From NCBI RefSeq assembly GCF_016623585.1, contig NZ_JAEHFY010000001.1:124001-188000 (forward strand): DNA of 64,000 bases. The letters are read 5' to 3'. Both the position numbers and the translations under genes were made by a program. Source of the DNA: Pedobacter segetis (GTDB lineage: Bacteria > Bacteroidota > Bacteroidia > Sphingobacteriales > Sphingobacteriaceae). Below are positions 38,970 to 41,754 of this stretch, one piece after another. The notes beneath the pieces were generated by a model. The model was not told the origin of the DNA and searched no databases. It was given only the letters and a program-made list of their open reading frames with translations. Each line of letters starts with the position of its first letter. Within the stretch, counting starts at the first letter, position 1.

Positions 38970-39102
38970 AACCACCAACAGGTTTGGAAAGAGTTTTTGC
39001 TTGATCTGGGCCTCTTTACTCATTATTACTTTTAGCTAATAAATATTTTCTGTTTCCCTACATTTATCAAAATCTATTTATCAAAAACACCGATTATAAT
39101 TC

Positions 39103-39110
39103 TATATTTG
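39103..39110 (+). promoter_or_regulatory. -7 element placing the transcript start at the riboswitch
   Basis: TATATTTG, a perfect TAnnTTTG, sits 13 bases before the conserved GGGGTGCC of the TPP aptamer, so the RNA would begin almost exactly at the aptamer. Confidence 0.5.
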
Positions 39111-39120
39111 CGCCATCAAT

Positions 39121-39323
39121 AAGGGGTGCCTTGTTTGTGTTATACGGAAATTTGATGCTAGCTCATTTATCCCCACAAATACAAAAACAGGCTGAGAACA
39201 TACCCTACGTTGAGGTAAACGGTTAAAGGTGCATGGTAAAAGGTTAAAACCTTAAACCTTCGGCCTCAAACCCTAAGCCTTTTCGTACACCTGATCCGGA
39301 TAATGCCGGCGTAGGGAACAAGG
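39121..39323 (+). ncRNA. TPP (thi-box) riboswitch with long internal insertion
   Basis: All conserved blocks of the thiamine diphosphate aptamer are present in order: GGGGTGCC (39123-39130), CTGAGA (39192-39197), ACCC (39202-39205), ACCTGATCCGGATAATG and CCGGCGTAGGGAA (39289-39317). Between ACCC and ACCTGATC there are 83 bases where the E. coli thiM aptamer has about 5. Inside, TACG-TTGAGG (39206-39215) can pair with CCTCAA (39264-39269) and CGTA (39284-39287). Downstream, AAGTTAAA (39327-39334) can pair with TTTAACTT (39370-39377) just before the start codon, a candidate expression platform. Confidence 0.93.
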
Positions 39324-39390
39324 TATAAGTTAAAATTTTACGAAGGCGGTAACCCCTATCGCTGGGCTGTTTAACTTAAAAAAAATCAAA

Positions 39391-41754
39391 TTGAAAAAAT
39401 TTATCCTTTCGGCAATTATTGCCATGGCCTGTCCGGTTTTATTGTTGGCGCAGTATAAACTGAGCGGAAAAGTAACAAGTTCTGAAAACAACGAACCTTT
39501 GATGGGTGCCGCCCTAAACCTAAGAACAATAGGTTCTACACAGTCTGATAATGAAGGCAATTACCAAATAAAAAAGATCAAAGGCGGTAATTATACCTTG
39601 GTTATTAGTTTTGTTGGCTATAAAACCCAAGAAATAAGCTTATCTATTAATAATGACCAGGCACTTAACATCAAGCTACAAAAAAGCGATTTAATAACCG
39701 ATGAGGTGATTGTGAACGCCACTAGGGCTTCAGAAAACTCGGCAACCACTTTTAAAAACCTAAAAAAGGCGGATATTGAAAAAAATAATTTCGGGCAAGA
39801 CTTGCCTTATCTATTAGATCAAACGCCAAACGTAGTCACTTTTTCTGATGCTGGTGCAGGTGTAGGTTATACAGGTTTAAGAATTAGAGGTTCTGATGCA
39901 ACAAGGATTAACGTTACCATCAACGGTATTCCTTATAACGATACAGAAAGCCAAGGGTCTTATTTTGTGGATTTGCCAGATTTTGCCTCATCAGTGGAAA
40001 ATATCCAGATACAACGTGGCGTAGGAACTTCTACCAACGGTGCCGGGGCTTTTGGTGGAAGTTTAAATATCCTAACCAATACTTTAAATGATCAGGCTTA
40101 CGCCGAAGTAAACTCTTCTGCCGGTTCTTATAACACCTTCAAGAATACGGTAAGCCTAGGCACAGGTTTAATAAACGGCAAATTTAGTTTTGATGGAAGG
40201 CTGTCAAGGATAGTCTCTGATGGTTATATTGATAGGGCATCATCAAGATTGAAATCCTATTTTTTATCCGGAGCTTATTATGGTAAATCTAGTCTTTTGC
40301 GCCTTAATGTTTTCTCTGGCAAAGAAAAAACCTACCAAGCATGGAATGGGGTTCCAGAAGATAAATTAGCAACCGACCGCAGGTTTAATGAATTTACTTA
40401 TGATGATCAAACCGATAATTATCAGCAAGACAATTATCAGCTTTTATATTCTAAAAGCTTTAGTGCCAAACTATCTTTTAACGGTGCTTTGCATTATACT
40501 CGCGGCAGCGGCTACTATGAAGAATACAAGAAAAACCAAACGTTATATGATTATAAGATCAACAATGTAATTATAGGAAACCAAACCATTACAAATTCTG
40601 ATTTGATAAGGAGGCGTTGGCTGGCGAACGATTTTTATGGGCTTACTTACGCTTTTCGTTATCAACCGTCTTCTAAATTAGATTTTACCTTGGGCGGGGC
40701 TTATAATGAATACAATGGCGATCATTATGGCGAAGTGATTTGGGCACAGTTTGCTTCTGACAGTAAAATTAGACAGCGTTATTATTTTGATAACGGGTTT
40801 AAAACCGATTTTAACGCATTTGGAAAAGCAAGCGTTCAGCTTAATCAGTTTTCTCTTTTTGGAGATTTGCAACTCCGTAACATTAGCTATGATTTTTTAG
40901 GTTTCGATAGAAATAAAAACAATGTTGGACAAAGTGTTTCCCTCAATTTCTTTAACCCAAAAGTTGGCTTAACCTACCAAATTAACCCTCAAAGTAATTT
41001 ATATGCTTCTTTTGCCGTGGCCAACAAAGAACCAAATAGAGATGACTACACGGAATCTACGCCAGATAGCAGGCCAAAGCCAGAGCGTTTAAACGATGTT
41101 GAAGTTGGTTATAGAATTAAAAAAGCGAGGTTTAATATTGGCGCAAACATTTATTCTATGATTTATAAAGACCAATTAGTTTTAACCGGGCAGATCAACG
41201 ATGTAGGTGCTTACATCCGTTCTAATGTGGCAAACAGTTACAGAAACGGAATTGAGCTAGATGCAACCTTTGCGGTTTTGCCAAAACTGAGCTGGGGCAT
41301 CACATCGGCTTTTAGCCAAAATAAAGTAAAAAACTTTGAAGAGTTTATTGATGATTACGATAACGGCGGACAAGTTAAAAACACATATAGTAAAACAGAT
41401 TTGGCATTTTCGCCCAGCTTTGTTGGCGGAAGCACTATTTCTTTTAAGCCAACCAAAGCATCGGAAATTGCATTTTTGAGCAAATATGTGGGCAAGCAGT
41501 TTTTGGATAATACGGCCAACAATAGTAGAAAGTTAGATGCCTTCTTTGTAAACAATTTACGCTTGAGTTACGATTTTAAGTTAAAGAACATCAAAAAATT
41601 GGGCGTTGGTTTATTGGTAAACAATATTTTTAATACGCTTTATGAAAGTAACGGTTATACGTTTAGCTATATAGATGGTGGCCTAACCACAGAAAACTAT
41701 TATTTTCCACAAGCCGAAGCCAACTTTTTGCTTTCTCTGAGCTTAAAGTTTTAA
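39391..41754 (+). CDS. TonB-dependent receptor, probable thiamine-compound importer
   Basis: A 787-residue outer-membrane receptor. The start is a TTG: it alone gives an intact signal peptide (MKKFILSAIIAMACPVLLLA) and no in-frame ATG precedes it. Then come a carboxypeptidase-like regulatory domain (about 24-105), a plug domain (LKKADIEKNNFGQDLPYLLD, RIRGSDATRINVTINGIPYN, GVGTSTNGAGAFGG) and the barrel. TPP riboswitch control predicts that it takes up thiamine or a precursor; the ligand is not provable from the protein. Confidence 0.94.
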   Translation: MKKFILSAIIAMACPVLLLAQYKLSGKVTSSENNEPLMGAALNLRTIGSTQSDNEGNYQIKKIKGGNYTLVISFVGYKTQEISLSINNDQALNIKLQKSDLITDEVIVNATRASENSATTFKNLKKADIEKNNFGQDLPYLLDQTPNVVTFSDAGAGVGYTGLRIRGSDATRINVTINGIPYNDTESQGSYFVDLPDFASSVENIQIQRGVGTSTNGAGAFGGSLNILTNTLNDQAYAEVNSSAGSYNTFKNTVSLGTGLINGKFSFDGRLSRIVSDGYIDRASSRLKSYFLSGAYYGKSSLLRLNVFSGKEKTYQAWNGVPEDKLATDRRFNEFTYDDQTDNYQQDNYQLLYSKSFSAKLSFNGALHYTRGSGYYEEYKKNQTLYDYKINNVIIGNQTITNSDLIRRRWLANDFYGLTYAFRYQPSSKLDFTLGGAYNEYNGDHYGEVIWAQFASDSKIRQRYYFDNGFKTDFNAFGKASVQLNQFSLFGDLQLRNISYDFLGFDRNKNNVGQSVSLNFFNPKVGLTYQINPQSNLYASFAVANKEPNRDDYTESTPDSRPKPERLNDVEVGYRIKKARFNIGANIYSMIYKDQLVLTGQINDVGAYIRSNVANSYRNGIELDATFAVLPKLSWGITSAFSQNKVKNFEEFIDDYDNGGQVKNTYSKTDLAFSPSFVGGSTISFKPTKASEIAFLSKYVGKQFLDNTANNSRKLDAFFVNNLRLSYDFKLKNIKKLGVGLLVNNIFNTLYESNGYTFSYIDGGLTTENYYFPQAEANFLLSLSLKF

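Follow-up and report, generated by a model that had tools for sequence, protein, structure and literature searches.

The leader of a TonB-dependent receptor gene in Pedobacter segetis holds a TPP riboswitch of variant structure: a hairpin arm is inserted in the joint between P2 and P4 (J2/4). The leader possesses the core blocks of the TPP aptamer but scores below the Rfam cut-off and bears no canonical P1. The covarying J2/4 arm, a structural novelty within this riboswitch class, is kept in many Bacteroidota, mostly before uptake genes. TPP is the putative ligand. The stretch of DNA analyzed here (64,000 nucleotides; termed the window) contains the following features.

39103..39110, + strand: promoter element (-7) of the Bacteroidota type, TATATTTG, ending 12 nt upstream of GGGG
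39115-39390, + strand: TPP (THI-box) riboswitch leader, before the TonB-dependent receptor gene
39115..39128, + strand: leader 5' end AUCAAUAAGGGGUG; GGG 39124-39126 is the P2 5' strand
39129..39191, + strand: extended P3 arm, 63 nt between GGGGTG and CTGAGA
39192..39205, + strand: CTGAGA-ACAT-ACCC; CCC 39203-39205 is the P2 3' strand
39206..39288, + strand: extra arm between P2 and P4, an 83-nt hairpin with 7-nt periodic repeats (fold z -3.6; covariation in relatives)
39289..39317, + strand: P4/P5, ACCTGATCCGG..TAATGCCGGCGTAGGGA (block reading, RF00059 alignment and alignment of relatives)
39326..39378, + strand: expression-platform hairpin, outer stem 39326-39334/39370-39378 and inner stem 39345-39351/39357-39363 (unconstrained folds)
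39353..39356, + strand: apical-loop CCCC, which may pair with GGGG 39123-39126
39391..41754, + strand: TonB-dependent receptor, 787 aa, TTG start (Pfam TonB_dep_Rec_b-barrel, Plug, CarbopepD_reg_2)

The original prediction held that all conserved aptamer blocks are present, and each of them was located, in order, in the window: GGGGTG (39123-39128), CTGAGA (39192-39197), ACCC (39202-39205), ACCTGATCC (from 39289) and CGTAGGGA (to 39317). The leader shares GGGGTG, CTGAGA, ACCC, ACCTGAT, TAATGCC and CGTAGGGA, as well as P2, P3, P4 and P5, with Rfam RF00059 (THI element). Unlike RF00059, it has a covarying arm in J2/4, where the displayed consensus has no helix, it belongs to a class with no recognizable P1, and its score is below gathering. 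At the gathering score, Rfam gave no match anywhere in the 64-kb window, and a permissive scan of positions 39050-39420 found RF00059 with 39.6 bits (cut-off 54.3), in which only the 3' half (39251-39336) was aligned. The Rfam TPP model, which had been suggested as a check on the insertion, thus recovered the element below gathering but misplaced the insert. A model built with the arm gave the window 67.9 bits and put the insert at the expected place, the window row being part of the training set. The long P3 and the absence of a canonical P1 are features that the original prediction did not include. As a separate observation on P3, its apical region has TGCTAGCT in common between the window (~39155-39163) and L046, L049, L052, L057, L060 and L063; this sequence could be a loop contact or a dimer site.

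The distance from ACCC to ACCTGATC is exactly 83 nt (39206-39288), as had been counted, while the corresponding joint is 3-5 nt long in unarmed relatives. The outer part of the helix proposed for this insert, TACG 39206-39209 with CGTA 39284-39287, was recovered, but the inner pairing of TTGAGG with CCTCAA was replaced by GAGGT/GCCTT in the fold. None of 100 shuffled sequences was as stable as the arm of the window (z -3.6). The AAGGTT/AACCTT repeats pointed out previously were found as well, within a 7-nt periodic repeat. The arm is made up of heptads of the form GGTNNAN, the sole such run in the window among the three patterns tried. Several arms fold as 5-bp helices separated by 2-nt internal loops. 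Inspection by eye showed no sequence conservation past the closing junction, and we therefore judged it unlikely that the arm forms another aptamer.

Runs of four heptads (RGTNNAN) were observed at 39214-39248 of the window and across the P. segetis genome, in which 26 partly overlapping four-heptad matches were counted against 3 for the reversed control. Among the four repeat copies inspected, two (L239 and L244) had no open frame longer than 26 aa, L243 had one of 82 aa, and L246 lay in a 357-aa frame. The arm of the window may have been seeded by this genome-wide 7-nt repeat.

To place the arm among relatives, 60 genomes including that of P. segetis were searched with RF00059, yielding matches in 58 (E <= 0.01), of which those in 31 were above the cut-off. 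We fetched 86 distinct loci (L001-L092 minus six repeats), and 75 of them fitted a block parser requiring ACCC 3-6 nt after CTGAGA. A relaxed pattern placed three of the 11 dropped loci, namely L079 (armed, 19 nt) and L009 and L021 (unarmed). In the 75 parsed riboswitches, the P2-P4 joint was 3-5 nt in 29 and 19-98 nt in 46, with none between. The closing register of the arm was identical in all 46 armed riboswitches, and the arm was a single hairpin in 45 of them, that of L058 being branched; the mean z of the 46 arm folds was -3.5, and 38 were below -2. None of the 46 armed loci came from RF00059 rows above the cut-off, so annotation relying on that cut-off would miss them.

Pairing in the arm was counted in 39 armed loci left after removal of near-duplicates. 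Pair 3 was standard in 39/39 with three Watson-Crick types, and pair 4 in 38/39, while position 1, which adjoins the junction, was mostly an A-G or A-A apposition (33/39). Over eight arm positions, 73% of the pairs were standard versus 45% after permutation, and 0 of 2000 permutations reached 73%. We then aligned 34 of 44 sequences, near-duplicates excluded, and built a model on this alignment (A1/R1). Compensatory, two-sided changes were found in all seven modelled arm pairs, and 81.9% of the arm cells were paired; none of 500 shuffles matched the observed value in any of five whole-structure measures. The paired cells amounted to 95.1% in P3, 98.9% in P4-P5 and 100% in P2, the last figure being uninformative because P2 never varies, and the aptamer blocks were invariant or nearly so across the 34 armed sequences. 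The original prediction had named relatives without a covarying extra stem as grounds for its refutation, and the opposite was found in this alignment and in the second set described below. The reading of the insert as an extra arm in a TPP leader is thus supported.

The second set was obtained by a pattern scan on the block letters around the arm in a genome collection of 84,980 species by its description. The scan gave 87 stretches, of which 80 were listed and analyzed; the pattern was written from Bacteroidota sequences and therefore says little on other phyla. Among the listed stretches, 70 of the 80 had inserts outside the 75 parsed riboswitches, 35 of them non-redundant. By their titles, the stretches of the scan came from Pedobacter, Mucilaginibacter, Daejeonella, Solitalea, Hufsiella, Olivibacter, Pseudopedobacter, Niabella, Ferruginibacter, Paraflavitalea, Chitinophaga and Foetidibacter, and the remainder from MAGs labelled only as Bacteroidetes/Bacteroidota, Bacteroidia, Sphingobacteriales or Sphingobacteriaceae. 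Arm pairs 2-8 were standard in 82% versus 46% after permutation (maximum 56% in 2000); pair 3 was standard in 35/35 and pair 2 in just 13/35. A class-wide search with the arm model, which matches unarmed forms too, found matches in 146 of 159 genomes. It brought 29 new loci, 26 of them parsed, including one from P. segetis; the other 25 comprised 17 armed loci, all before a TonB receptor (three repeat earlier loci), and eight unarmed ones. The examination of loci from this search covered L100-L151 (49 of 52 parsed), which are best-scoring loci and thus biased towards armed forms; L093-L099 were left out.

The arm is tied to the kind of gene that follows. In the window's family, 41 of the 42 riboswitches assigned to uptake genes were armed (34 TonB, 7 PnuC-family; the single unarmed one is L016), as opposed to 0 of the 12 assigned to other genes (ThiC, ThiS, methyltransferase and CDP-alcohol phosphatidyltransferase), with a Fisher p of 4e-11 that is uncorrected for relatedness. 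For the 12, the gene was assigned as the largest open frame nearby, and the family split was entered by hand; these counts exclude L046 (armed, gene off the stretch) and the unarmed L084, L087 and L088 (without a clear gene). Unarmed riboswitches before TonB receptors occur too, outside the window's family. Downstream of the second set, a relative of the window receptor was found in 62 of 70, and the other eight had a PnuC-like open frame by eye in six and none in two. Separately, unarmed riboswitches of the same family were observed before genes that are not known to be thiamine genes: in three genomes a SAM-dependent methyltransferase gene, and in one a gene for a CDP-alcohol phosphatidyltransferase (L012:1661-2383, L014:710-1432, L028:728-1477 and L085:749-1333).

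The receptor gene at 39391..41754 has the appearance of a vitamin B1 uptake gene, and thiamine is its putative substrate. The P. segetis genome carries a second copy of the riboswitch (L001) with a 63-nt arm, upstream of a PnuC-family gene. ThiC found no match in this genome, and P. segetis therefore probably depends on the uptake of thiamine or its precursors. TIGR01378 thiamine pyrophosphokinase found no match there either, and another kinase family may stand in its place. A match to Flavo-1 RNA (L001:724-816; 41.8 bits, cut-off 42) was noted near the second riboswitch copy.

The armed leaders of the window's class differ from other TPP riboswitches also at their 5' end. The closing helix P1 was at or near chance in this class: in 38 armed leaders (37 with an assigned TonB gene plus L046), the P1 register held 2.21 of 5 pairs versus 2.08 with swapped partners, and at least 5 bp were formed in 2/38, while 22 unarmed non-TonB leaders had 4.41 versus 2.54. 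In the second set, a P1 of at least 5 bp was found in 0/69, with a register mean of 2.59, slightly above the swapped 2.37. A P1 of at least 5 bp was found in 5/17 armed leaders of other families, which rules out that the arm always replaces P1; replacement thus holds at most for the window's family and its near relatives. In the P1 comparison that included the 38 armed leaders, the group 'TBDT short (other families)' contains one locus of the window's family (L016). In the same 38 leaders, the promoter motif TAnnTTYG, which we take to be the consensus behind the -7 element TATATTTG, lay 9-15 nt before GGGG in 37 and 11-13 nt before it in 33, and was absent in one; in the second set, the spacing was 11-13 nt in 47/69 and 11-15 nt in 62/69. 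From the position of the promoter, transcription of the window's leader probably starts at the leader 5' end.

The body of the arm diverges fast, if not invariably. When the window was compared with L046 and with L060, the identity was 96-99% in P2-P3, 100% in P4-P5 and 90-91% in the platform but 64-65% in the arm, for which shuffled arms gave 53-54%. L057 and L065 are identical in P2-P3 and the platform, with 73% identity between their arms. On the other hand, the arms of L046 and L060 are 96% identical. Wholesale replacement of the arm was rejected, as arms were above the shuffled average in all six near-relative pairs examined, one of them being the 96% identical pair; another was merely level with the best of 200 shuffles.

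This divergence bears on the strongest of the alternatives, namely that J2/4 is a tolerated insertion site, the arm having no role beyond folding away and the loss of P1 and the platform being separate features. We regard this explanation as a serious contender, albeit one that is probably wrong. It would account for an arm that changes faster than its surroundings, for the presence elsewhere in the genome of the 7-nt repeat of the window arm, and for the arm and P1 standing together in other families; furthermore, stem-loop-forming insertions are described as usual in riboswitches in the available part of PMC2258182. It fits poorly, however, with the single closing register of the 46 arms, the covariation adjacent to the junction (pair 3), the occurrence of the arm almost solely before uptake genes within the window's family, and the near-identical arms of L046 and L060.

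The preferred reading, a switch built around the arm, draws on the expression platform. Besides the arm and P2, P3, P4 and P5, the unconstrained fold of 39115-39405 (-70.7 kcal/mol) showed a two-part hairpin before the start. The stem 39327-39334/39370-39377 that had been proposed earlier was recovered in this fold, 13 nt before the TTG at 39391, and this platform hairpin is a reasonable candidate for the switch. For the 84 of 95 leaders matched by the start pattern, the start codons were TTG in 55, ATG in 19 and GTG in 10.

The loop of the hairpin may pair with the 5' end of the leader. Of 39 armed leaders (including L046), 32 have CCCC at a distance of 10-75 nt downstream of the aptamer, versus 1.04 expected by shuffling, and 7 lack it; the counts were 3/7 in the PnuC-type armed leaders, 48 with and 14 without among 62 in the second set, and 7/17 in the armed leaders of other families. 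A run of CCC or CCCC was present in 63 of 64 non-redundant leaders and lay in the apical loop of a conserved two-part hairpin in 61 of the 63. Of the 63, 59 did better than 95 or more of their 100 shuffles and the window is among the four that failed; its inner stem alone did not exceed shuffles (z -0.8). GGGGUG ranked first as partner for the C-run in 91 of 94 leaders, a result that is nearly trivial once a C-run exists. The proposed GGGG:CCCC pairing involves an invariant GGGG and is thus not open to a covariation test. A nested fold with this pairing reached -64.9 kcal/mol, 5.8 kcal/mol worse than the aptamer fold at -70.7. On these energies, the RNA would adopt the aptamer fold even without ligand, unless pseudoknot formation or the order of folding intervenes.

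Other pairings were considered. The pairing of the 5' end AUCAAU with AUUGA at the start codon, taken from the best fold of the window, was rejected, since own partners (-1.82) did no better than swapped ones (-1.84) and 2905 of 5000 permutations over 77 distinct leaders were as good. In the unarmed thiS/thiC leaders L003, L007, L011, L013 and L018, reading by eye suggested two pairings downstream of the aptamer, one between a CCTAAAGT-like sequence and the 5' strand of P1 and one between CATTCC and GGAATG at the start codon; these pairings are a possible translational switch of their own.

We lean, with limited confidence, towards a TPP-off and probably translational switch, in which the J2/4 arm sits in a fixed register, P1 is lost, and GGGG:CCCC acts as the opener; both the off sense and the translational level are what the arrangement of the leader suggests. 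The J2/4 hairpin arm varies freely in length and largely so in sequence but keeps one closing register, and in the window's family the transcript would begin directly at P2 after the loss of P1. With TPP bound, P2 (GGG:CCC) would be closed, P2/P3 and P4/P5 would clamp the ligand, and the two-part hairpin kept 13 nt before the start codon would impede ribosome entry, turning uptake off. With no TPP, the GGGGU at the 5' end of the mRNA would pair with the CCCC loop, opening P2 and the hairpin, and uptake would be on. According to the available part of PMC6847099, Bacteroidetes mRNAs lack a Shine-Dalgarno sequence, and structure in the start region tunes initiation in Flavobacterium johnsoniae. 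Together with the absence of any terminator-like site in 39000-39500, this makes the hairpin 13 nt upstream of the start a plausible translational gate.

The same armed riboswitch could instead act on transcription, in a Rho-dependent or pausing-based manner served by the C-loop hairpin. In its favour, the leader is structured, and both levels of control are described for TPP riboswitches elsewhere (PMC12121620, available part), but we consider this unlikely, as no terminator-like site was found in that interval and the sequence after the hairpin is A-rich, not U-rich. Moreover, PMC5613172, in its available part, reports no significant change in the expression of the transport operons with predicted TPP riboswitches in Bacteroides thetaiotaomicron upon thiamine addition; the leaders of these operons may differ from those described here.

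In published TPP riboswitches, the closest counterpart of the arm is the facultative P3a stem, which is likewise an optional stem-loop tolerated by the fold of the same aptamer. The insert is most improbably this stem misplaced by eye: RF00059 did place the insert of the second P. segetis copy (L001) in P3a, but P3a sits between UGAGA and ACCC in the available part of PMC2258182 and the arm of the window between ACCC and ACCUGAUC, and CTGAGA-N4-ACCC precedes the arm in 46/46 armed riboswitches (partly by selection, because the parser allowed N3-N6), with the same spacer in 23/29 unarmed ones. The available parts of PMC4260697, PMC12632268 and PMC5882874 describe TPP riboswitches with the long P3 seen in the window; the variation they report concerns P3 and P3a, and the window differs from them by its P2-P4 arm. 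The TPP riboswitches of B. thetaiotaomicron likewise precede genes of outer-membrane transporters and PnuT (PMC5613172, available part), the comparison covering the genes that follow. An arm between P2 and P4 was not found in a literature search covering titles and the beginnings of abstracts, mainly of freely accessible papers, to which the first survey of the THI element does not belong.

Altogether, the arm shows that a covarying helix can be accommodated between P2 and P4 even in a riboswitch that has been studied as heavily as this one. As a tentative and rather doubtful extension, the TPP aptamer may have been rewired in the uptake leaders of Sphingobacteriaceae: the third helix of the junction would have moved from P1 to the P2-P4 arm, freeing the 5' GGGGU as a switching strand against the CCCC loop, and the body of the arm would be free to diverge, and could even be made up of a 7-nt repeat found genome-wide, provided that the closing pairs are kept. 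The function of TPP riboswitches in Bacteroidetes was called uncertain in 2017 (PMC5613172, available part), and the arrangement described here offers a concrete, testable architecture for them.
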